Assembly: GCF_003268855.1 (NCBI RefSeq)
Contig: NZ_QLSZ01000001.1
Coordinates: 321,369-385,368 of the forward strand
Reading direction: 5' to 3'
From: Flavobacterium aciduliphilum
GTDB taxonomy: Bacteria > Bacteroidota > Bacteroidia > Flavobacteriales > Flavobacteriaceae
DNA: 64,000 nt
Shown piece by piece: positions 49,753-60,955 of the stretch. The notes beneath the pieces are model-generated. The model saw only the letters and a list, made by a program, of their open reading frames with translations, was not told the DNA's origin and did not search any database. Every line of letters starts with the position of its first letter. Within the stretch, counting starts at the first letter, position 1. The translations under genes were made by a program, and so were the position numbers.

Positions 49753-51117
49753 CTACTCTTTAATAAACTTTTGAATGGTTGTTTTTCCACTAGAAGTAAC
49801 CGAAAGAAAATAAATACCCGAAGCTAAATTTTGAACATTGATTTGATTAAAATTATTCTTCTGTTTTAGCATCACTTTTCCCATTAAATCAATTACTGAA
49901 ATCTCTTCTATTTCATTTTCATTTGAATTAATGTTTAAAATGGTTGTTACAGGATTTGGATAAATTTGAAATGAATTTAAAATCTGATACTCTTCATTAT
50001 TTAAAGCAGGACAAGTTATTGTTATTGGTACCAATGATGTTGTAGTGCTTCCATTTCCAAGTTCGCCATAAAAGTTTTGACCCCATGCCAACATAGAATC
50101 ATCCATATTAATTCCAATTGTATGATACTCACCTGTAAAGGCAAATTTCCAATTAGTAGCAGTTCCTACTTGTGTAAAAACATTTTTCTGAATAGTTGTT
50201 CCATCTCCAAGCATACCGTAAAGATTATAACCACTAATCCATAATGTTTTGTTGTATTTTATTGCCAAAGAATTCTCTCTCCCAACACCTATACTTTCCC
50301 AATCATTTTGAGTTCCAACTTGAGTTAGTGAATTCAAATTAGTTATCATACCATGTGCTAAAGCACCGAAACTACTGTGTCCTGTCGTGTAAATTGTACC
50401 ATTTGTCTTTAAAGCTAGTGTATAATACGAACCTGATAAAGCAGTTTTCCAATTATTATCAGTTCCAACTTGAATTGGAATATAAGAATTAGTATTATTT
50501 CCATTTCCAAATTGACCATAAAAATTATTTCCCTATGCCCATAAAGTTCCGTTATTTTTAATTCCTAAACTGTGAGAAGGACTAGCACAAATTTGAGCCC
50601 AATCATTTGCAGTTCCTATTTGAGTTGGTACAGTTTTATTTACTAAAGTTCCATCTCCCAATTGTCCATAGTTGGAGTTATCACCCCAAGCCCAAAGCGT
50701 TCCATTGTTCTTTAATGCTAAATTAGAAAAAGCGGTCGCTGAAACTGTTTTCCAATCATTTGCAGTTCCTATTTGAGTTGGAATTAGTTTATCTGTAGTT
50801 GTTCCGTTACCTAATTGTCCAGAACTATTTGAACCCCAAGCCCACAAAGTGCCATTTATTTTTATTGCAAGTGCATGTGCTCCACAAATTGAAACCGTTT
50901 TCCAATTGTTTTCGTTTCCAATTTGTATAAAAGTATTGCTATCTGTCAAAGTACCATTTGCTAACTGACCACTCCAATTAGCACCGCAACCCCACAAAGT
51001 ACCATCATTCTTAATGCCTAATGTATTGTAAAGTCCAACTGAAATCGATTTCCAACATTGCGCATTGCTATTTTGAAAAAAAAGAAGTAATAAAATTAAA
51101 ATAAGAATCTTTTTCAT
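49753..51117 (-). pseudogene. secreted RCC1-repeat protein with T9SS domain, interrupted by one amber codon
   Basis: From 51117 the frame encodes a signal peptide (MKKILILILLLLFFQNSNAQ), then about seven RCC1-like repeats of ~48 residues with the consensus NGTLWAWGxNxxGQLGNGT and TxIGTANDWKTVS. The frame is open to 49753 except for a single TAG at 50533-50535, where the consensus WAWG demands Trp (TGG). After it the repeats continue and end with a type A T9SS domain (YPNPVTTILNINS to KFIKE). One base change therefore splits a ~454-residue protein. It is either a recent nonsense mutation, a sequencing error or an unusual readthrough. RCC1 propellers bind proteins, so a surface interaction role is likely. 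Confidence 0.85.
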
Positions 51118-51302
51118 AAATTTAGTATTATTCATCAATAATGCAAAAACCTGAAAGGTTGGATGAAATAAATTTGATTTAAAAAACTCTCAAATATATT
51201 AAAATAAAACTCAAATCTAAATTAATATTCTGTAACAAAAATAACAAACCTTATACTTACATTTGAAATAAATTTCCCATTAAGTGGTAATCCAAAATCA
51301 AA

Positions 51303-52001
51303 ATGAGCACCCCATTAATCAACATCAGCAACATCAAACGTGATTTTCAACTTGGAAGTGAAATCATTAACGTTTTAAAAGGAATTGATTTACAAATCTA
51401 CAAGGGCGAATATGTTGCCTTAATGGGGCCCTCAGGTTCAGGAAAATCAACTTTAATGAATCTTTTAGGATGCTTAGATACGCCTACTTCAGGAACATAC
51501 ATTTTAAACGGAAAAGACGTTTCGCAAATGCACGATGATGATTTGGCCGACATTCGCAATAAAGAAATTGGATTTGTTTTTCAGACGTTTAACCTTTTAC
51601 CAAGAACAACAGCTCTAGATAATGTTGCCTTACCCATGATTTATGCAGGTTACAGCAAGATTGAACGTCATAAAAGAGCTACAGAAGTTTTAACACAAGT
51701 AAACTTGGCAGACAGAATGGATCATCAACCCAACCAACTTTCGGGAGGGCAACGCCAACGTGTCGCTGTTGCAAGAGCTTTAGTCAATCATCCATCAATT
51801 ATTCTTGCCGATGAACCTACAGGAAATCTTGATAGTAAAACGTCGGTAGAAATCATGAAACTTTTTGGTGACATCCATGCGGCTGGAAACACCGTCATCT
51901 TGGTTACTCATGAAGAAGATATCGCTCAATACGCTCACCGCATCATCCGACTACGAGATGGACTTATAGAAAGTGATACGCCCAATGTGAATCACTTGTA
52001 A
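51303..52001 (+). CDS. ABC transporter ATP-binding protein (MacB/LolD type)
   Basis: A 232-residue ATPase with Walker [11 protein letters not shown]-loop FQTFNLL, signature [15 protein letters not shown] and Walker [14 protein letters not shown]. The [12 protein letters not shown] stretch is typical of the MacB/LolD group, which drive lipoprotein release or extrusion with FtsX-type permeases. No permease gene is next to it in the window, so the partner must be elsewhere. Confidence 0.9.
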
Positions 52002-52004
52002 TGT

Positions 52005-52688
52005 TTAGATCTCTTTTTGTTTAAAAAATTCATACAAGTGTATGATAGATGCAATAAGTAAAAAACCATAAAAAACATCCTCTATAGGAATGGTTCCTAA
52101 TCGGATGCCGAGATTTTCCTTGTCATTATAACACACTACAGGCGCTTTAATAAAAGTACCTGTTAAAATTCCATTTACTAAAAAGAAAAAAGGAAGCGTT
52201 GCGCCATAAGACACGTATGTTTTAGACATATCAACTTTTTTCTTCCATTGATGAAATAAAAAAATCGAAGTGAGAAGGAAAGTGGAAGCGGTATACCATT
52301 TTGTTATGAAAATGAGCCCAATAACTGCCAAACTTAGAGCCATAAATAGTGTTAATACTCTTTCAAAGGAGAGTTTCCATGACTCGTTGATAAAGTACTT
52401 TGAAGCGAAATATATAAAAACACTTGCATAAGGAATAAAGAAAAAAAATAAGACTTCTTCTATTGGAATATTGACTAAATAATACCCCATTAAATACGTT
52501 TTATTAAATCCCCAAACGCCTAAATGGGTAAAACAAACATCCCATACAATAAAAAAAGTGGCCACCACACTGTTTGCCAAAAAAAAGGGTTTCCATTCCT
52601 TGACAAAAGCATGTTTTTTGTAAAAACTAGCCATGAAAGGAACAAAAATACTTCCTAGATTTAACGCCAAATAGAGATATGTATTCAT
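52005..52688 (-). CDS. lycopene beta-cyclase, fused heterodimeric type (CrtYcd)
   Basis: A 227-residue membrane protein with six or seven hydrophobic helices. The ATG at 52688 (MNTYLYLALNLGSIFVPF) overlaps the crtZ stop (TAATG); the longer frame starts with a doubtful upstream codon. Two lycopene-cyclase domains are in tandem, each with the PxE(E/D) motif: PIEE at 75-78 and PIED at 201-204. This is the CrtYc/CrtYd-type cyclase, unrelated to the FAD-dependent CrtY. It would convert lycopene to beta-carotene. Last gene of the carotenoid operon. Confidence 0.85.
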   Translation of the reverse strand: MNTYLYLALNLGSIFVPFMASFYKKHAFVKEWKPFFLANSVVATFFIVWDVCFTHLGVWGFNKTYLMGYYLVNIPIEEVLFFFFIPYASVFIYFASKYFINESWKLSFERVLTLFMALSLAVIGLIFITKWYTASTFLLTSIFLFHQWKKKVDMSKTYVSYGATLPFFFLVNGILTGTFIKAPVVCYNDKENLGIRLGTIPIEDVFYGFLLIASIIHLYEFFKQKEI

Positions 52689-53137
52689 TACATTTTGAAA
52701 TATTTTTTGGGCACATACAGCATGCCAAAACATTCTCCTTCTTCTTTCCCTAAATGTTTGTGATGTACTTTATGAGCTTTTCGTAAACCTACAATATACT
52801 TGTTTTTAACCCTTGAAAACATTTTTATTCGCTGATGAATGATAATTTCATGTACCACAAAATAAGCCATACCATAAAGCAGTATACCCAATCCGATGAA
52901 AAACATAAAATTTAGTTCTGGATGCACACCAAAATAAAAAAGCAACATACTAGGAATGGCAAAAATCACAAAAAACCAATCATTTTTCTCAAAAAAAGAA
53001 AGATATCTGGGTTGGTGGTGGTCTTCATGCAGGTACCACAAGAATCCATGCATAACATATTTATGGGTTAACCAAGTAACACATTCCATGCCCATAAAGG
53101 TTCCAAAAGTGATTAAAAAAAATTGTAGCGCCATCAT
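52688..53137 (-). CDS. crtZ: beta-carotene hydroxylase
   Basis: A 149-residue membrane di-iron hydroxylase of the fatty acid hydroxylase superfamily. The ATG at 53137 overlaps the crtB stop in ATGA. Histidine clusters are HKYVMH (25-30), HEDHH (37-41), HEIIIHQR and HKVHHKH, the expected set. It would hydroxylate both rings of beta-carotene to give zeaxanthin. Translational coupling to crtB is likely. Confidence 0.92.
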   Translation of the reverse strand: MMALQFFLITFGTFMGMECVTWLTHKYVMHGFLWYLHEDHHQPRYLSFFEKNDWFFVIFAIPSMLLFYFGVHPELNFMFFIGLGILLYGMAYFVVHEIIIHQRIKMFSRVKNKYIVGLRKAHKVHHKHLGKEEGECFGMLYVPKKYFKM

Positions 53138-53973
53138 AACATGTAATTTAATTGGCAATTCACAAAAGATTTTCCAATAATAAACATTTTACTCACGTCA
53201 TCAACACGAATTCGTTTATTTAAAATTTCTTCAGGTTCAGTTTTGGCGATTTTATGCAATAAACTTTTGTAATATCTGTACGCGGTATACACTCCAAATT
53301 TTGCCTCATTTGGTAAATTTTTAATTCCTACAAGTGCTTCTTTAAAATCGTTTTCGATTTCAGCAACTATAGCTTGCTTATCCGTATGGGATAATGATTT
53401 CATATTTACATTGGGAAAATAAATTCTTCCTAAATTCTCGTAATCATGTTTTAAATCCCGCAAAAAATTCACTTTTTGGAAAGCCGAACCAAGTTTCATT
53501 GCACTAGCTTTTAGGGCATCATATCGTTTTCTATCACCATTCACAAAAACCAAAAGACACATCAACCCTACCACATCAGCAGAACCAAAAATATACGCTT
53601 CATATTCCTCTTTAGTAAGATATTCTTTTTTATTCAAATCCAATCGCATACTTTTTAAGAAAGGCTTTACCAAATCGAGCATATCATAACGATGCACCAC
53701 TTCTTGAAAAGCATTCAGCACAGGATTTAAACTTATTTTTCGCTCATAAGCTTTGTAAAAATCAGCTTCAAATTCGTCTAACAACTCTTTTTGATTGAAC
53801 TCGTCAAAAGTATCTACAATCTCGTCGGCACAACGAACAAATCCATAAATGACATAAATATCATTTTGGATTTTAGGAGCTAACATTTTGATAGCTAATG
53901 AAAAAGAGGTACTATACTTTTTGGTAATTATTTTGCTGCATTCTATTGCAGATGTGTCAAATAAACTTTTCAT
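53134..53973 (-). CDS. crtB: phytoene synthase
   Basis: A 279-residue head-to-head prenyltransferase that condenses two GGPP to phytoene. The two Asp-rich motifs are D50EIVD54 and D173LKHD177, the second within FLRDLKHDYENLGRIYFP. SAFQKVNFLRD is also typical. The start overlaps the crtI stop by ATGA. A GGPP synthase (crtE) gene is not in the window, so it must be elsewhere. Confidence 0.94.
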   Translation of the reverse strand: MKSLFDTSAIECSKIITKKYSTSFSLAIKMLAPKIQNDIYVIYGFVRCADEIVDTFDEFNQKELLDEFEADFYKAYERKISLNPVLNAFQEVVHRYDMLDLVKPFLKSMRLDLNKKEYLTKEEYEAYIFGSADVVGLMCLLVFVNGDRKRYDALKASAMKLGSAFQKVNFLRDLKHDYENLGRIYFPNVNMKSLSHTDKQAIVAEIENDFKEALVGIKNLPNEAKFGVYTAYRYYKSLLHKIAKTEPEEILNKRIRVDDVSKMFIIGKSFVNCQLNYML

Positions 53974-55430
53974 AATTTGTTTTCTTTACTAATTTTATCA
54001 CTTGCAATTTTTCCAGAAATTAGCGAGGGTGGTACTCCTGGGCCGGGAACCGTTAGCTGTCCCGTAAAATATAAATTTTTTACTTTTTTACTTTTTATTT
54101 TAGGTCTTAAAAAAGCCGTTTGTGTTAGGATGTTTGCCAATCCATAAGCATTTCCTTTGTAGGAATTATAATCATTTTTAAAATCATTAACACAAAATGA
54201 TTCTTTGACAAGGATATGCTCTCGAACCGATTGATTGGTTATTTTTTCAAAACGAGTGATAATCTTTTCGAAATACTGTTCTCGTATTTCAGGAGTATCT
54301 TCAAGATCAATAGCTAAAGGGATTAAAAAAATAGCCGCTTCTTTATCTTTTGGCGCAAAACTATCATCAGTGATAGAGGGAAAACTTGCGTAGAATAACG
54401 GATTTTTAGGCCATTTTTTGGTATCATAAATCTCTATGGCATGTTCCTCGAAAGGAGCATCAAAGAAAAGTGTGTGGTGCTTTACGTGAGCAATCTTTTT
54501 ATCAAATCCAACATAAAATAATAATGAAGAAGGAGCAAACGTTTTTTTGTTCCAATATTGTTCAGAATATTGACGAAGATTTGGAGCTAATAATGTTTCA
54601 GTAAAATGATAATCAGCACCACTAAGCACGATATCGGCTAAAATATTTTTTTTATTTACCTGCAAGCCTGTAACCTTACCCTTCACTACATTTATTTTTT
54701 CCACAGTAGCGTTAATATGAATTGTTACACCTAATTCTATCGCTAATTGTTCCATAGCCTCAACCACAGAATACATTCCTCCTTTTGGATGCCATGTTCC
54801 CAAGCCAAAGTCGGCATAATTCATAAAATTATAAAATCCAGGAGTGTTTGATGGTTTGGCACCTAGAAACAATATAGGAAATTCAAGAATTTGCTGCAAT
54901 CGCTTATCTCTAAATCGCGACTTAACCGTTTTACTAATAGTAGAAAAGAATTGAGAGACTTTTAAAACTGTTTTTGGTGTAATCAATTCAAGAATAGAAT
55001 CTCCAGGTCTGTACACCAAATCTTTAATAGCAATTTCATAATTATTTCTTGCCTCATCAATAAAGGAATGTAATTTTTTGCCACTACCTGGCTCAATTTC
55101 TTCAAAAGTTTGCTCGATTTGAGCTAACGAATCAGCGATTTCAACAGCATTATTTTGTCCAAAAAAAACTTTGTAGGCGGGTGATAACTTTTCAAGCTGG
55201 TAATAATCCTCTACTCTTTTTCCAAAATCTTGAAAGAATTTTTCAAATACATCAGGCATCCAATACCAAGTAGGCCCAATATCAAAGGTGAACCCTTTGG
55301 TTTTTAATTGTCGGGCTCGACCACCTACTTGACTATTTTTTTCATAAAGCGCTACTTCATATCCTGCTTTAGCAAGATAACAAGCCGAAGCCAGTGATGA
55401 AAATCCAGAACCGATGATTGCTACTTTCAT
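53970..55430 (-). CDS. crtI: phytoene desaturase
   Basis: A 486-residue FAD enzyme that desaturates phytoene to lycopene. The Rossmann motif IIGSGFSSLASACYLAKAGY has Ser in place of the third Gly of GxGxxG. FTFDIGPTWYWMPDVFEKFF follows, and the C-terminal LTVPGPGVPPSLISGK is the carotenoid-desaturase signature. First gene of crtI-crtB-crtZ-cyclase, with a promoter at 55450-55481 that overlaps candidate MerR sites. Confidence 0.94.
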   Translation of the reverse strand: MKVAIIGSGFSSLASACYLAKAGYEVALYEKNSQVGGRARQLKTKGFTFDIGPTWYWMPDVFEKFFQDFGKRVEDYYQLEKLSPAYKVFFGQNNAVEIADSLAQIEQTFEEIEPGSGKKLHSFIDEARNNYEIAIKDLVYRPGDSILELITPKTVLKVSQFFSTISKTVKSRFRDKRLQQILEFPILFLGAKPSNTPGFYNFMNYADFGLGTWHPKGGMYSVVEAMEQLAIELGVTIHINATVEKINVVKGKVTGLQVNKKNILADIVLSGADYHFTETLLAPNLRQYSEQYWNKKTFAPSSLLFYVGFDKKIAHVKHHTLFFDAPFEEHAIEIYDTKKWPKNPLFYASFPSITDDSFAPKDKEAAIFLIPLAIDLEDTPEIREQYFEKIITRFEKITNQSVREHILVKESFCVNDFKNDYNSYKGNAYGLANILTQTAFLRPKIKSKKVKNLYFTGQLTVPGPGVPPSLISGKIASDKISKENKL

Positions 55431-55440
55431 TTATTGTCAT

Positions 55441-55475
55441 TTTGTTTAACAAATGTAGTTTTTAAATTAAACAAA
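55441..55475. promoter_or_regulatory. candidate MerR operator at the crtI promoter
   Basis: TTTGTTTAA (55441-55449) and TTAAACAAA (55467-55475) form an inverted pair with 17 bases between. The left arm is also inside the perfect palindrome TTTGTT-T-AACAAA (55441-55453). The pair overlaps the -7 box and the spacer of the crtI promoter, where MerR-family proteins bind. The same 9-mer occurs twice at the merR promoter. Confidence 0.45.
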
Positions 55476-55481
55476 AACAAA
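55450..55481 (-). promoter_or_regulatory. promoter of the carotenoid operon
   Basis: TTTG (55478-55481), 20-base spacer, TACATTTG (55450-55457) on the minus strand, a full match to the Bacteroidota consensus, 19 bases before the crtI ATG. Confidence 0.65.
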
Positions 55482-55495
55482 TAAAAAACAATATT

Positions 55496-56392
55496 TTATA
55501 CAAAATCAATTAGAGATGCCACGGTATCAAACTTATAAATTCCTGAATATAAAGAGGCTAACTGTTTAGTTTGGGCTCCAGAAATCAATAATTTACTGTT
55601 ACTTTGGGCAATTATTTCATCATTAAAACGGAAGAGATACGACTCTAAAACATCCACATGAGGGGCAACAGTAAAATATGATACATAAATGACTTCCTGA
55701 AACATCTTATTCATTTCTACCAAATCCGAAAACGGCACACTCGATCCCAAATAAATGGTTTTGTAGCCCATCTCTAGCAACTGGCTATTAACAAACATCA
55801 ATGACATCTCATGTATTTCATTCTCAGGAAGAAACAATACAAATGTTTTAGTTTCATCTATATAATTAGCCTCTTTATTAATTGTAGCTATGTAGGAAAT
55901 TAACTTTTGATAAATTAGGTAACTTACAAAATGTTCATGAATCGATTTTATACTATTGGTTTGCCAAAGCATTCCAATTTCTCTTAAAAATGGAAAATAC
56001 ACATCTATAAATATTTCACCAAAGCTTTTTACTTTAGCCAATTCCTCATGCGTCTGATTGAATAAAACAGAATCAAAATTAAACATCGCTACTTTTAGAA
56101 CATTTATAGAGTAATTTAAGTTTGTAATGCTTGAATTTACTTGTTTTACAGTAGCAATCAGATCCTTATCAGAGAGTGATGCTATTCTAGAAATTTTATA
56201 CCCATAATTATTCAAGAATGCAATATTCAACAATTTACACAATTCCTCAATAGAATAAAACCTTACATTTGTCTCGGTTCTATTGGGATTAAATATATGA
56301 TAGCGTTTTTCCCATATCCTGATTGTATGTGCTTTTATCCCGGAAAGATTTTCTAAATCTTTTATACTAAATTCAATTTTAATATTGTTCAT
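55496..56392 (-). CDS. MerR family regulator with adenosylcobalamin-binding domain (CarH/LitR-like)
   Basis: A 298-residue regulator. The ATG at 56392 (MNNIKIEFSIKDLENLSG) fits better than an in-frame TTG upstream. The N-terminal winged helix is of MerR type (GIKAHTIRIWEKRYHIFNP). The C-terminal part matches the B12 photoreceptor architecture: a helical bundle with W143...E153-H154, exactly the Wx9EH motif, and a Rossmann-like domain with the cobalt-ligand motif E192-I-H194-E-M-S197 (Gly of ExHxxG replaced by Ser). In known members AdoCbl keeps a repressor tetramer bound in the dark and light breaks it. It lies directly upstream of crtI, same strand, and next to the AdoCbl-making enzyme. Confidence 0.87.
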   Translation of the reverse strand: MNNIKIEFSIKDLENLSGIKAHTIRIWEKRYHIFNPNRTETNVRFYSIEELCKLLNIAFLNNYGYKISRIASLSDKDLIATVKQVNSSITNLNYSINVLKVAMFNFDSVLFNQTHEELAKVKSFGEIFIDVYFPFLREIGMLWQTNSIKSIHEHFVSYLIYQKLISYIATINKEANYIDETKTFVLFLPENEIHEMSLMFVNSQLLEMGYKTIYLGSSVPFSDLVEMNKMFQEVIYVSYFTVAPHVDVLESYLFRFNDEIIAQSNSKLLISGAQTKQLASLYSGIYKFDTVASLIDFV

Positions 56393-56393
56393 C

Positions 56394-56418
56394 TTAAACA
56401 AATATAATATTAAACAAA
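56394..56418. promoter_or_regulatory. candidate autoregulatory MerR sites
   Basis: TTAAACAAA occurs at 56394-56402 and 56410-56418, 16 bases apart, overlapping the merR -7 box. Because CAAA is also the complement of the TTTG promoter element, some similarity is expected by chance. Confidence 0.4.
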
Positions 56419-56445
56419 ATTACAATTCCTTACCGAATAACCAAA
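56415..56445 (-). promoter_or_regulatory. merR promoter
   Basis: TTTG (56442-56445), 19-base spacer, TAATTTTG (56415-56422) on the minus strand. A second TATATTTG box is at 56399-56406. Confidence 0.5.
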
Positions 56446-56527
56446 CAAAATACCTTAAAATAATGCAATTCCATTCTTTTTACTTTTATTCCATCCTTTT
56501 TATTACTTTTGAATCCTAAAAAAAGTC

Positions 56528-57097
56528 ATGAAAATATATACCAAAACTGGAGATTCAGGACTCACCTCACTTTTTGGAGGTACACGAGTGCCAAAACACC
56601 ACATTCGCATTGAAAGTTACGGAACTGTAGATGAATTGAACTCCTATATTGGTCTTATTCGGGATCAAGAAATTCATTCCCTCTATAAAAAGGTGCTCAT
56701 TGAAGTGCAAGACCGACTTTTTACAGTTGGAGCTATTTTGGCTACTCCTCCTGAAAAAGAAACACTCAAAAACGGCGAGAAAAGACTTCAAAATCTCGGC
56801 ATTAAAGCATCTGATATTGAATTTTTAGAACACGAAATCGACAACATGGAAGCCCATATCCCTCCCATGACACATTTTGTTCTTCCTGGAGGACATCCTA
56901 CAGTGTCACATTGTCATATTGCGCGATGTGTTTGCCGACGTGCCGAACGTTTAGCTGTACATTTAAATGACATTGAGCCCACGGATGAGCATGTAATCAA
57001 ATACCTAAACCGACTTTCTGACTATCTTTTTGTCTTGGCACGAAAGTTGTCTTACGATTTGAACGCTGAAGAAGTTCAGTGGATACCAAGAAAATGA
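56528..57097 (+). CDS. ATP:cob(I)alamin adenosyltransferase (PduO type)
   Basis: A 189-residue trimeric enzyme that adenosylates cob(I)alamin to AdoCbl. KIYTKTGDSGLTSLFGG is the ATP-binding N-terminal signature, followed by YGTVDELNSYIGL, the HFVLPGG loop, CRRAERLAV and the C-terminal NRLSDYLFVLARKL. It is divergent from the merR gene (135 bp apart) and has a TACTTTTG box at 56504-56511. The product is the cofactor expected by the neighbouring regulator. Residual alternative: supply for an AdoCbl-dependent mutase elsewhere. Confidence 0.93.
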   Translation: MKIYTKTGDSGLTSLFGGTRVPKHHIRIESYGTVDELNSYIGLIRDQEIHSLYKKVLIEVQDRLFTVGAILATPPEKETLKNGEKRLQNLGIKASDIEFLEHEIDNMEAHIPPMTHFVLPGGHPTVSHCHIARCVCRRAERLAVHLNDIEPTDEHVIKYLNRLSDYLFVLARKLSYDLNAEEVQWIPRK

Positions 57098-57295: not shown

Positions 57296-57517
57296 ATGTA
57301 TTGGACATTAGAATTAGCATCTTATTTAAGTGATGCACCGTGGCCTGCTACCAAAGATGAACTCATTGACTACGCTATTCGAGCTGGAGCTCCACTAGAA
57401 GTAGTAGAAAATCTTCAGTCAATTGAAGACGAGGGAGAAATATATGAATCAATGGAAGAAATTTGGCCTGATTATCCGACTGACGAAGATTACCTTTGGA
57501 ATGAGGATGAATATTAA
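57296..57517 (+). CDS. DUF2795 family acidic protein
   Basis: A 73-residue very acidic protein (about 20 Asp/Glu). MYWTLELASYLSDAPWPATKDELIDYAIRAG fits DUF2795, a small domain of unknown function; the C-terminus is an acidic tail (PTDEDYLWNEDEY). It is in front of secA but followed by a weak hairpin (57541-57569). Confidence 0.75.
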   Translation: MYWTLELASYLSDAPWPATKDELIDYAIRAGAPLEVVENLQSIEDEGEIYESMEEIWPDYPTDEDYLWNEDEY

Positions 57518-57613: not shown

Positions 57614-60600
57614 ATGAGTTTTATTAACAACATTATCAAAATGTTTGTTGGCGATAAATCTGAAAAAGATGTCAAAGCCACACAACCTTATATTACGAAA
57701 ATCAAAGCTTTAGAACCTGCTTTAATGGCGTTGTCACACGATGCATTGAGAGCCAAAACGACTGAGTTCAAAGAAAAAATAAAAACGGCACGTGCCAAAC
57801 AAGACGCTGAAATAGCCGCTAAAAAGATTGAAGCTGAAAACACCTCTGATATCGACCTGAGAGAAGATATTTATAATGCTATTGATGCATTAGAAAAAGA
57901 GGCGTATGACATTTCTGAAAAAGTGCTCATGGAACTTCTTCCTGAAGCATTTGCTGTTGTTAAAGAAACCGCACGCCGTTTTAAAGAAAATGCAACTATT
58001 GAAGTTACTGCAACTGCAAAAGATCGAGAACTTTCAGCTACTAAACCCTATATCACATTAGATGGAGATAATGCTCTATGGGCAAACCAATGGAATGCTG
58101 CGGGAAAAGATATCACTTGGGATATGATTCACTATGACGTGCAGCTTATTGGAGGTATTGTTCTGCATCAAGGTAAAATCGCTGAGATGCAAACCGGAGA
58201 AGGTAAAACCTTAGTTGCTACCCTTCCACTATATTTAAATGCACTTACCGGTAATGGTGTCCATTTGGTTACTGTAAATGACTATCTAGCCAAACGTGAT
58301 AGCACATGGAAGGCTCCCTTGTTTGAATTTCATGGTTTAACAGTAGATTGTATTGACAACCATTCACCCAACACTGAGGCGCGACGCAAAGCGTATGAAG
58401 CCGACATCACTTATGGAACCAATAATGAGTTTGGTTTTGATTATTTAAGAGATAATATGGCTCATGCTCCTGAGGATTTGGTACAACGAAAACACAACTA
58501 TGCGATTGTCGACGAGGTCGATTCGGTATTAATTGATGATGCTCGTACGCCTTTAATCATTTCGGGACCTGTACCTGATGGAGACCGTCATGAATTTAAT
58601 GAATTAAAACCTAAAGTTGAAAATTTATATAATTTACAACGTCAATTATCGAATGGTTTTTTAGCAGAAGCTCGAAAATTAATCAAAGAAGGAAACACAA
58701 AAGATGGCGGATTCCAATTACTAAGAGCCTACCGTTCGCTTCCTAAAAACAAAGCACTTATCAAATTTTTGAGTGAGGAAGGAGTAAAACAACTGCTCCA
58801 AAAAACTGAAAACGAATACATGCAAGACAACAATAGAAAAATGCCTCTTGTTGACGAAGCCTTGTATTTTGTTATTGAAGAAAAAAACAATCAAGTTGAA
58901 TTAACAGATCATGGTATCAAATTCTTATCACAAGATACCGACGAAAATTTCTTCGTACTGCCAGATATTGGAACAGAAATTGCAAATATCGAAAAACAAA
59001 ATTTAGATAAAGACAAAGAAGCTGAGGCCAAAGAACATTTATTTCAAGACTTCGGAATCAAATCAGAACGTATTCACACGCTAACTCAGTTATTGAAAGC
59101 CTATACGCTTTTTGAAAAAGATGTAGAATACGTGATCATGGATAACAAAATCTTAATCGTGGACGAACAAACAGGTCGTATTATGGATGGTCGTCGCTAT
59201 TCTGATGGATTACACCAAGCTATTGAAGCGAAAGAGCAAGTAACTATCGAAGCAGCTACACAAACTTTTGCAACCATCACGCTCCAAAACTATTTCCGCA
59301 TGTACAGTAAGTTGGCTGGTATGACAGGTACTGCTGTTACGGAAGCTGGAGAATTTTGGGAAATTTACAAATTGGATGTCGTTGAAATTCCTACAAACAA
59401 AGGAATTTCTCGTCATGATAAAGAAGATTTAATCTACCGTTCGGTTCGTGAAAAGTTCAACGCTGTGATTGAAGACGTGACCCAACTTGCTGCTTCAGGA
59501 AGACCTGTATTGATAGGAACCACATCGGTTGAAATTTCTGAATTATTAAGCCGAATGCTTAAAATGCGTGGTGTAGCACACAATGTGTTGAATGCTAAAA
59601 TGCACAAAAAAGAAGCCGAGATTGTGGCCGAAGCTGGTAAACCAGGCGTGGTAACCATCGCAACAAATATGGCAGGTCGTGGAACCGATATTAAACTTAC
59701 TCCAGAAGTGAAAGCCGCTGGCGGATTAGCAATTATCGGTACAGAGCGTCACGATTCACGTCGTGTAGACCGTCAGTTACGTGGTCGTGCCGGCCGTCAA
59801 GGAGATCCAGGAAGTTCTCAATTTTATGTATCCTTAGAAGATAATTTAATGCGTCTTTTTGGTTCAGAACGAGTGGCTAAAATTATGGATAGAATGGGCT
59901 TGAAAGAAGGAGAAGTGATTCAGCATTCTATGATGACCAAATCTATTGAACGAGCACAGAAAAAAGTAGAAGAAAACAACTTTGGTACACGTAAACGTTT
60001 GCTAGAATACGATGATGTGATGAATGCTCAAAGAGAGGTCGTTTACAAACGCCGCCGTCATGCTCTTCATGGCGAACGCTTGAAGTTGGATATTGCCAAT
60101 ATGTTGTACGATACTTGCGAATTAATTGTTAGTAACAGCAAAGCTACAAACGATTTTAAAAACTTTGAATTTGAACTCATTCGCTATTTTTCTATAACCG
60201 CTCCAGTCTCTCAAAATGAATTTGAAAAAATGAATGAGATGGAACTTACGGGAAGAGTGTACAAAGTAGCCATGCAATTTTACAATGAAAAATGTGAGCG
60301 TTGTGCCCGAGAAGCATTCCCTATTATCGCTAATGTATACGAGAATCCTAACAACCAATATGAGCGCATCATCGTTCCTTTTACAGACGGAATCAAATCC
60401 TTAAATGTTGTAACCGATTTGAAAAAAGCTTATGAGGGTCAAGGCGCTCAACTTATTGCCGATTTCGAAAAAAATATCACCTTGGCGATTGTAGATGAAG
60501 CTTGGAAAAAACATTTGCGTAAAATGGACGAATTGAAAACTTCTGTTCAGTTGGCCGTTCACGAACAAAAAGACCCTCTATTGATTTACAAACTTGAAGC

Positions 60601-60955
60601 GTTCAATTTATTTAGAAACATGCTAAATGGTGTCAACAAAGAAGTGATTTCTTTCTTATTTAAAGGAGATTTACCGCAACAAGACAACACGATTCAAGAA
60701 GCCAAACAAGAAGTTCGCAGAAAAGAAAATTACACCGAATCAAGAGAAGAATTTCAAAGTAGCGATACGTCCCGTCATGAGGGAGAACAACCGAAACGTC
60801 AAGTTACCGAAACGATTGTTCGTGATCAACCTAAAATTAACCGAAACGACAACGTGACGATTAAACATGTTATGAGTGGAAAAACTGAAAGCATGAAATA
60901 CAAAAAAGCGGAGAGTATGATTGCCAGTGGCGAATGGGTCATTGTTCATGAATAA
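57614..60955 (+). CDS. secA: preprotein translocase ATPase SecA
   Basis: A 1113-residue motor that pushes preproteins through SecYEG, ~210 residues longer than E. coli SecA. Walker A is GEGKT (195-199) in MQTGEGKTLVATLP, the DEVD box is at 300-303, and the second motor half has TNMAGRGTDIKL and QLRGRAGRQGDPGSSQFY. The extra length lies mainly between the DEVD box and the preprotein-crosslinking region (~325-500), as in other Bacteroidota. The C-terminal zinc/SecB-binding Cys motif is absent; the chain ends in VMSGKTESMKYKKAE and EWVIVHE. It has a TAAATTTG box at 57572-57579. Confidence 0.96.
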   Translation: MSFINNIIKMFVGDKSEKDVKATQPYITKIKALEPALMALSHDALRAKTTEFKEKIKTARAKQDAEIAAKKIEAENTSDIDLREDIYNAIDALEKEAYDISEKVLMELLPEAFAVVKETARRFKENATIEVTATAKDRELSATKPYITLDGDNALWANQWNAAGKDITWDMIHYDVQLIGGIVLHQGKIAEMQTGEGKTLVATLPLYLNALTGNGVHLVTVNDYLAKRDSTWKAPLFEFHGLTVDCIDNHSPNTEARRKAYEADITYGTNNEFGFDYLRDNMAHAPEDLVQRKHNYAIVDEVDSVLIDDARTPLIISGPVPDGDRHEFNELKPKVENLYNLQRQLSNGFLAEARKLIKEGNTKDGGFQLLRAYRSLPKNKALIKFLSEEGVKQLLQKTENEYMQDNNRKMPLVDEALYFVIEEKNNQVELTDHGIKFLSQDTDENFFVLPDIGTEIANIEKQNLDKDKEAEAKEHLFQDFGIKSERIHTLTQLLKAYTLFEKDVEYVIMDNKILIVDEQTGRIMDGRRYSDGLHQAIEAKEQVTIEAATQTFATITLQNYFRMYSKLAGMTGTAVTEAGEFWEIYKLDVVEIPTNKGISRHDKEDLIYRSVREKFNAVIEDVTQLAASGRPVLIGTTSVEISELLSRMLKMRGVAHNVLNAKMHKKEAEIVAEAGKPGVVTIATNMAGRGTDIKLTPEVKAAGGLAIIGTERHDSRRVDRQLRGRAGRQGDPGSSQFYVSLEDNLMRLFGSERVAKIMDRMGLKEGEVIQHSMMTKSIERAQKKVEENNFGTRKRLLEYDDVMNAQREVVYKRRRHALHGERLKLDIANMLYDTCELIVSNSKATNDFKNFEFELIRYFSITAPVSQNEFEKMNEMELTGRVYKVAMQFYNEKCERCAREAFPIIANVYENPNNQYERIIVPFTDGIKSLNVVTDLKKAYEGQGAQLIADFEKNITLAIVDEAWKKHLRKMDELKTSVQLAVHEQKDPLLIYKLEAFNLFRNMLNGVNKEVISFLFKGDLPQQDNTIQEAKQEVRRKENYTESREEFQSSDTSRHEGEQPKRQVTETIVRDQPKINRNDNVTIKHVMSGKTESMKYKKAESMIASGEWVIVHE

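Follow-up and report, generated by a model that had tools for sequence, protein, structure and literature searches.

CarH is known to act on carotenoid genes in Thermus, Bacillus and the Myxococcales (passages of PMC9304148). The protein of Thermus thermophilus (structures 5c8d, 5c8e and 5c8f) joins a MerR domain to a four-helix bundle with the Wx9EH motif and to a Rossmann-type domain with a His ligand, and the CarH-Tt and CarH-Bm operators are described as tandem 11-bp direct repeats, nnnnTnnACAn (passages of PMC9304148). For the Myxococcales, where carH often lies in or near carotenoid genes, passages of the same source describe the mapped operators as direct repeats with pseudo-repeats, call these operators plastic and report a dimeric CarH in Cystobacter, so that departures from the Thermus scheme are already known. 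The class II LitR proteins of Pseudomonas (PplR/PmlR) target photolyase, cryptochrome-like, SDR and folE genes, but these regulators, which respond to a LOV protein, are not believed to be B12 binders (passages of PMC9758184). Here we describe a 64,000-nucleotide stretch of the Flavobacterium aciduliphilum genome (2.74 Mb, 99.94% complete), called the window in the following, which carries a carH-like gene between a carotenoid operon and a gene for a cob(I)alamin adenosyltransferase (ATR). Our reading, to which we assign a probability of about three in four, is that the regulator is a flavobacterial B12 photoreceptor of a diverged CarH type, which in the dark and bound to adenosylcobalamin (AdoCbl) would repress carotenoid and photorepair genes, and that the ATR is a housekeeping neighbour.

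In the open-access literature searched we found no CarH study in Flavobacteria or Bacteroidota, and passages of PMC8156234 contain nothing on Bacteroidetes. Chryseobacterium lacus forms carotenoids upon light induction, and its authors found no car or lit genes (passages of PMC7064467). MliR, a MerR-like protein without an effector domain (passages of PMC9478572), was excluded as a counterpart of the regulator described here. In a sample of the phylum, 63 of the 296 genomes gave a carH match at E 1e-15. Among those without one at this threshold are six listed genomes of a different family within the order, which may or may not be the family of Chryseobacterium.

The regulator and its kinship with CarH

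The four carotenoid genes of the window are located on the minus strand (52005-55430), with the regulator gene directly upstream of crtI and the divergent ATR gene 135 bp beyond it. A first-pass annotation had described a MerR-type regulator with the Wx9EH motif in just this position, and all three parts are indeed present. The residues W143, E153 and H154 of the motif, together with the predicted cobalt ligand His194, are identical in 59 of 59 aligned regulators. Because the other 58 proteins share only 43-63% identity with the regulator of the window, Wx9EH is no chance motif. Equally invariant (59/59) are E192 and H194 of the cobalt-ligand motif ExH and residues W27, E28, K29 and R30 of the recognition helix, which is of the WERRY type and reads RIWEKRY. 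The loci of relatives in the sets used here are the best 30 matches per search and not a random draw. In a set of 80 loci from named genomes, which overlaps in genomes with our other locus set, GxxWx9EH is intact in 79; the exception, L184, reads EN. Two regulators from genomes of the genus have the very sequences found in named-genome loci of F. glaciei and of a Flavobacterium sp. The gene directly downstream of carH is crtI in 79 of these 80 loci and in 58 of 58 other best-match carH loci, with genomes partly common to both sets. The earlier pairing of a CarH-like sensor with carotenoid output is thereby supported, and a conserved promoter site, described below, agrees with it.

The regulator matches the MerR_1 family (E 3.3e-11; PF13411, 43.6 bits). 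For B12-binding_2 it obtained 22.0 bits, just below the cutoff of 23, and 24.8 bits, above the cutoff, when the whole genome was searched. With the AlphaFold model (predicted local distance difference test, pLDDT, 89.9) as query, the 12 best Foldseek matches were all Thermus CarH; the chains of 5c8d, 5c8e and 5c8f came first, followed by other light-responsive B12 domains. The best match, 5c8d_E (E 4.6e-14), superimposes with a template-modelling (TM) score of 0.55 over the whole chain and a root-mean-square deviation of 8.7, and the B12-domain chains reach TM scores of about 0.7-0.79 by target length.

Several features of the protein weigh against our reading. The NCBIfam CarH model NF052513 gives only 58.2 bits against an equivalog cutoff of 400, and the Pfam B12-binding (Rossmann) family found no match in the regulator at E 0.001. 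The first part of the classic motif D/ExHx2G/Px41SxT/Vx22-27GG is kept in most of the aligned proteins (G in 56/59, Ser in the protein of the window), but the second half is degenerate, with SxxT and a single Gly. Light-responsive B12 domains are reported to share GxxW, EH, GxxH and GxxxP (passages of PMC11796333); here GxxH reads NxxH in 56/59, and this set is thus incomplete although the other three elements are present. The residue after the Trp is Gln in 59/59 and not His, the upper ligand in light-exposed Thermus CarH (passages of PMC9304148). The aligned regulators also depart from the Thermus protein at two further positions: in place of the Arg that precedes its ligand His they have Ile/Val/Met, and in place of the LGPDTP Asp they have Ser/Asn/Thr. 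In Thermus CarH this Arg-Asp pair forms a dimer salt bridge; both the salt bridge and the His after the Trp are found in many, but not all, CarH proteins.

One could take these deviations to mean that the regulator is CarA-like, having kept the fold and lost the use of AdoCbl and light, and that it answers to a partner protein or to some other cue. The weak family scores, NxxH, a Rossmann motif that has degenerated and Gln instead of His behind the Trp would all suit such a protein, and B12-independent relatives do exist in CarA and the class II LitR of Pseudomonas (passages of PMC9304148 and PMC9758184). We nevertheless consider this explanation unlikely, because the Trp, Glu, His and ligand His are invariant, the Trp being absent from M. 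xanthus CarA (passages of PMC9304148), and because the genome shows signs of B12 import and holds an ATR for making AdoCbl. The weak NF052513 score, the degenerate B12 motif, NxxH, the Gln after the Trp and the replaced Arg and Asp place the regulator in a diverged CarH branch. We therefore say that it works like CarH and belongs to this branch, without having every defining CarH feature. By analogy with CarH it would bind AdoCbl and DNA and respond to light.

In a carH tree, the base of which is unsafe owing to two long out-class rows, the regulator of the window groups with those of the genomes G342, G316 and G308 and of a metagenome-assembled genome, L151 (97/87); the 26 remaining Flavobacterium rows (100/99) stand separately from this group. 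The loci listed for the branch with the carH of the window are L008, L068, L069 and L151. Either horizontal replacement or fast evolution could have produced this separate branch, and the crt-carH cassette as a whole may have been acquired by horizontal transfer.

A conserved repeat at the crtI promoter and half-sites at carH

A predicted CarH operator lies over the crtI promoter (55444-55472; Table 1). It is the sole perfect site in the window and, in the form of a longer pattern, has the sole match in the genome. Among relatives the gap between carH and crtI is short and variable, yet it often contains a near-fixed string, TTGTTTAAC, about 10 bases and TAnnTTTGTTAAACAA. The promoter elements of Bacteroidetes are TAnnTTTG and an upstream TTG, and the conserved string therefore overlaps the promoter. 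The consensus of the repeat is GTTTAAC-N14-GTTAAAC. When searched as GTTTAAY-N13..16-RTTAAAC with at most one mismatch, it was found in 67 of 82 unique crtI gaps of at least 30 nt, as compared to 0.4% of the shuffles, and the spacer is 14 bp long in 67 of the 71 gaps that fit at two mismatches or fewer. The first 59 loci, through their crtI gaps, and the first 30 promoters of the TetR cluster discussed below had been viewed before the inverted-repeat pattern was defined; cleaner tests are provided by 32 other named-genome gaps, 63 later TetR promoters and a scan of the family. Of the 39 named-genome crtI gaps, 7 are identical to gaps of the first set, and 27 of the 32 others fit with at most one mismatch. 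Shuffling preserved dinucleotides; where this was impossible, single bases were shuffled (crtI-gap test) or the sequence was left unshuffled (TetR and carH promoter test).

At the carH promoter we found half-sites, which we predict to be autoregulatory. In 105 of 139 loci (shuffles 0.04%), and in 98 of the 131 unique sequences, the string TAnnTTTGTTTA[AG] occurs no more than 70 nt from the start of carH; a full site is rare there (7/131). Across the genus, the longer pattern occurs in exact form in 17 of 121 genomes, and the reversed control gave 0. By eye, 13 of these 17 matches are at carH or crtI, six in the carH-crtI gap and seven before carH.

Other counts speak against our reading. In 47 of 138 loci the carH-crtI gap is shorter than 30 nt and hence lacks an intergenic site, and only 2 of these 47 have a full site before carH. 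The remaining 4 of the 17 exact matches of the longer pattern lie away from carH and crtI. Within its own genome, the half-site alone is at chance level (8 hits versus 12 in the reversed control), and it was rejected as a genome-wide predictor.

The orientation of the half-sites deserves particular care. An inverted repeat with N14 is the best fit; whereas the CarH-Tt and CarH-Bm operators are direct repeats, half-sites with the TnnACA core here seem to face each other across 14 bp. As the half-sites are near-palindromic, GTTTAAC and GTTAAAC differing at one base, orientation is hard to tell at crtI and a direct reading is allowed there. The site could then be built from a pair of CarH direct repeats that lie about two turns from each other, the unit between them having degenerated, and the 21-22 bp between the half-sites are close to twice 11. 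Inverted repeats proposed for M. xanthus CarA were later judged to be direct repeats, and the plasticity of the Myxococcales operators would accommodate such a layout as well (passages of PMC9304148). We regard direct repeats as a real possibility, if one that we would bet against, since the consensus is symmetric and since in many promoters of the photolyase cluster the right half reads, by eye, TTAAACA without the TTTG that direct repeats would need. The inverted arrangement, combined with the replaced Arg-Asp pair, suggests an oligomer that may differ from the tetramer on direct repeats.

Sites beyond the carotenoid genes

A full site (G000:C2:110069-110096; one mismatch, N14), which came up among the eight half-site hits in the genome, was also detected on another contig, C2, directly before a cluster of genes for a TetR-like protein, an AarF-ABC1 kinase, a DASH cryptochrome (TIGR02765, 475 bits, cutoff 317), the photolyase-related DPRP, an SDR and folE. 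This site suggests that the regulator may also control light-driven DNA-repair genes elsewhere in the genome. If it is a site of CarH, the circuit is not self-contained, since the photolyase operon lies on a different contig. The TetR gene is present in 96 of 121 genomes of the genus, 93 of which also have carH; 12 genomes have carH only, 3 the TetR gene only and 13 neither, and 46 of the 93 carH-TetR pairs start within 20 kb on one contig. The promoters of the TetR cluster contain the site in 63 of 96 cases at one mismatch or fewer and in 80 of 96 at two or fewer. Among the 63 promoters from carH-bearing genomes that were fetched after the pattern had been set, 43 fit at the stricter and 53 at the looser threshold, all 53 of them with N14.

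In the family scan, the exact palindrome was found in 87 of 249 genomes and the reversed pattern in 2. The palindrome tracks carH: it is present in 86 of 206 genomes with a carH match versus 1 of 43 without. The two Fisher tests make no correction for kinship, and in three of the 206 genomes counted as having carH the match is weak (E ~5e-4). On the other side of the balance, the exact palindrome is missing from 162 of the 249 genomes, and of the three genomes with the TetR gene and without a carH match, two have the site at one mismatch (68% complete) and two mismatches (89% complete). In the third, which is 99% complete, the site has three mismatches.

TetR-family proteins commonly bind inverted repeats. 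The repeat might therefore be the site of another factor, for example of the TetR-like protein encoded after it in the 80 genomes just mentioned. We give this idea little credence. Of the 12 genomes with carH and without a TetR match, five were viewed, one of them without a gap, and the four usable ones (75-100% complete) all have a perfect site at crtI (4/4), for which reason the TetR-like protein was thought unlikely to be the binder of the crtI site. The tracking of carH by the site and the half-sites at most carH promoters argue against it as well.

For 30 loci with an exact site we noted the nearest gene after it. This was crtI in 8, the TetR-like gene in 7, a gene for a protein of about 142 aa in 6, a fasciclin-like lipoprotein gene in 3, folE in 1, the DASH cryptochrome gene in 1 and another gene or none in 4; as the site is symmetric, a divergent gene on the opposite side is an alternative target in three of the 30. 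In four clusters that were read fully (L357, L358, L360 and L363), one site precedes the TetR gene and another the gene for the ~142-aa protein. The latter also directly follows an exact site in L328, L329, L332, L334, L344 and L347, near an SDR gene and mostly near folE. Two members of this protein gave no match in Pfam and one gave none in NCBIfam, and we consider it a candidate new light-response protein. Fasciclin-like lipoprotein genes after an exact site were seen in L330, L340, L356, L359, L361 and L362, and one of the three in the 30-locus tally was checked with Pfam. In G308, contig C1 (L118 4633-6002) has the longer pattern ahead of msrA and of a folE-type gene.

We tentatively go one step further, at somewhat less than even odds. 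The regulators may form a distinct flavobacterial B12-photoreceptor branch that binds GTTTAAC-N14-GTTAAAC, an inverted repeat spanning two turns, and that differs in its dimer/tetramer geometry, given that other residues have taken the place of the Arg-Asp pair of the dimer and of the photoproduct ligand His after the Trp. Such a branch would govern a family-wide light regulon comprising carotenoids, the DASH cryptochrome, the photolyase-related protein, folE, msrA (in one genome), the fasciclin-like lipoproteins and the ~142-aa protein.

The adenosyltransferase, B12 supply and the proposed circuit

The ATR is an ordinary PduO-type enzyme (TIGR00636, 180.6 bits, cutoff 108.45), and only its position beside carH is unusual. 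Of the 114 other genomes of the genus in which the match covers all or almost all of the protein, 113 have an ATR that is 69-88% identical to it. Among 121 Flavobacterium genomes, an ATR match was found in 115 and a regulator match in 105; in the 102 good genomes the counts are 101 and 90. The first-pass annotation had suggested a self-contained circuit with its own cofactor enzyme; on this view the ATR would have been recruited beside carH to bring the sensor, the supply of its cofactor and the carotenoid output under joint regulation. The divergent arrangement does recur in G342, with a carH-ATR gap of 142 bp as compared to 135 bp in the window, and CarH-type half-sites lie inside the gap of the window. 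These two genomes are, however, the only ones with adjacent genes out of 99 Flavobacterium genomes in which both were found. In the genome that comes closest after them, 19.8 kb separate the two genes; in 79 of the 99 genomes they are on different contigs, where adjacency across a contig break is still conceivable. The 80 named-genome loci, with flanks of up to 10 kb, show no ATR beside carH. The close relative G316 has a regulator 63% identical to that of the window, and its cassette is in another place, where the 16 kb read contain none of ATR, secA and the ABC gene. This assembly is 76% complete, and no ATR was found in it.

The neighbours that the ATR does keep are different ones. In the 28 best ATR loci besides those of the window and G342, secA comes next in 26, the contig apparently ending in the other two, and the ABC gene of the window precedes the ATR in 17. 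In both the window and G342, the ABC gene comes first, then the crt-carH cassette in reverse, then the ATR and secA, which places the cassette in the ABC-ATR junction. The crtI-type site was found in none of the 28 ATR promoters at one mismatch or fewer and in 3 of the 28 at two mismatches, with a spacer of 16; within the carH-ATR gap itself the best match has 5 mismatches in the window and 3 in G342. The ATR of the window has a -7-like element that is presumably its own, and by eye TAnnTTTG-like elements precede the ATR in several relatives. Together with the need of other AdoCbl enzymes for an ATR and its near-universal presence in the genus, with or without carH, these data make recruitment for a self-contained circuit very improbable, and the ATR was rejected as a dedicated partner of carH. 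It looks like a chance neighbour that came to lie beside carH by rearrangement. Of the three-part locus, the carH-crtI pairing is thus conserved (79/80), whereas the ATR adjacency is not (2/99).

The ATR probably has further clients, namely the products of a mutase-type frame of 1144 aa on C9 and of methylmalonyl-CoA-mutase-type genes on C1, and C2 holds a second B12-binding_2 gene, an 895-aa frame that is presumably MetH-like. The other AdoCbl-enzyme genes on C1 and C9 also speak against a self-contained circuit, as does the predicted site at the photolyase operon. The search for cob genes covered only CbiC, which is absent from the genome and was found in 7 of 14 control genomes. The sole cobalamin riboswitch found in the genome (G000:C1:423545-423782) lies just before the gene for a TonB-dependent receptor, probably BtuB-like, which is divergent from a gene for a periplasmic binding protein, probably BtuF-like. 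The source of B12 had been left open before; the riboswitch before this receptor and the missing biosynthesis marker now make import likely rather than synthesis, and the gene content suggests that imported B12 may serve several clients.

Table 1. Features of the locus, with positions in the window.
Feature	Position	Strand	Basis or remark
ABC transporter ATPase	51303..52001	+	crt-carH cassette here separates the ABC gene from the ATR
Lycopene cyclase with a CarR domain, at the end of the crt operon	52005..52733	-	TIGR03462, 107 bits, over cutoff; PF18916
crtZ-like carotenoid hydroxylase	52688..53158	-	His-rich sequence; homologue after crtB in 77/80 named-genome loci
Phytoene synthase crtB	53134..53973	-	PF00494, E 2.6e-45
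Phytoene desaturase crtI (CrtID type)	53970..55430	-	NF058655, 731 bits, cutoff 640
Predicted CarH operator over the crtI promoter, GTTTAAT-N15-GTTAAAC, with -7-like TACATTTG inside	55444..55472	-	phylogenetic footprint
CarH-like MerR regulator with cobalamin-binding-type C-terminus	55496..56392	-	298 aa; likely start ATG 56392
Codon of the predicted lower-axial cobalt ligand His194	55811..55813	-	aligned with His of GERHE in Thermus CarH
Wx9EH motif, W143-QTNSIKSIH-E153-H154	55931..55966	-	matched by the corresponding part of Thermus CarH in the alignment
Predicted autoregulatory half-sites at the carH promoter, TATATTTGTTTAAG and upstream TTTTGTTTAA	56393..56419	-	conserved half-site
-7-like element TACTTTTG, presumably the ATR's own promoter	56504..56511	+	CarH-type site absent over the element
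PduO-type cob(I)alamin adenosyltransferase (ATR), member of the ABC-ATR-secA neighbourhood	56528..57097	+	TIGR00636; synteny
secA	57614..60955	+	profile match; synteny with the ATR

The second carotenoid gene in this table, which we take to be crtZ-like from its His motifs, encodes a product for which Pfam and NCBIfam scans gave no match at E 0.001. A small acidic open reading frame of about 73 codons (57296-57517, plus strand) was seen in the raw sequence between the ATR gene and secA. Two open reading frames on the minus strand (50533-51138 and 49753-50349) read, by eye, as one interrupted RCC1-repeat protein with a C-terminal sorting domain, possibly a broken gene.

Genes, motif conservation, fold match, synteny, site conservation and the other B12-enzyme genes were computed directly. 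From the likeness to CarH we infer AdoCbl binding, release by light, repression and the binding of the site by this very protein. In the mechanism that we propose, the AdoCbl-bound regulator would in the dark occupy the pair of half-sites about two helical turns apart over the crtI promoter and block transcription, and it would also bind the half-sites at its own promoter. Light would break the Co-C bond, upon which the protein would leave the DNA and the carotenoid genes would be expressed. The same site would place the cluster with the TetR-like, AarF, DASH-cryptochrome, photolyase-related, SDR and folE genes on the other contig under the same control, making the circuit a photoprotection and photorepair regulon and not a three-gene unit. 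Imported B12 would be converted by the housekeeping ATR, beside which carH would have arrived when the crt-carH cassette came between the ABC gene and the ATR in this lineage. Such a CarH-like mechanism agrees with targets of a photoprotective kind, with the half-sites at carH and with a site that overlaps the promoter.

If this is true, a large family of aquatic, non-phototrophic bacteria couples B12 supply and light to pigment formation and DNA photorepair, and one site that can be recognised in the sequence makes the regulon testable in many cultured species. It may also give a new operator geometry for a protein family that is used in optogenetics. The B12 status of the cell would then reach the switch via import and a shared adenosyltransferase, which would correct the picture of a self-contained cassette.

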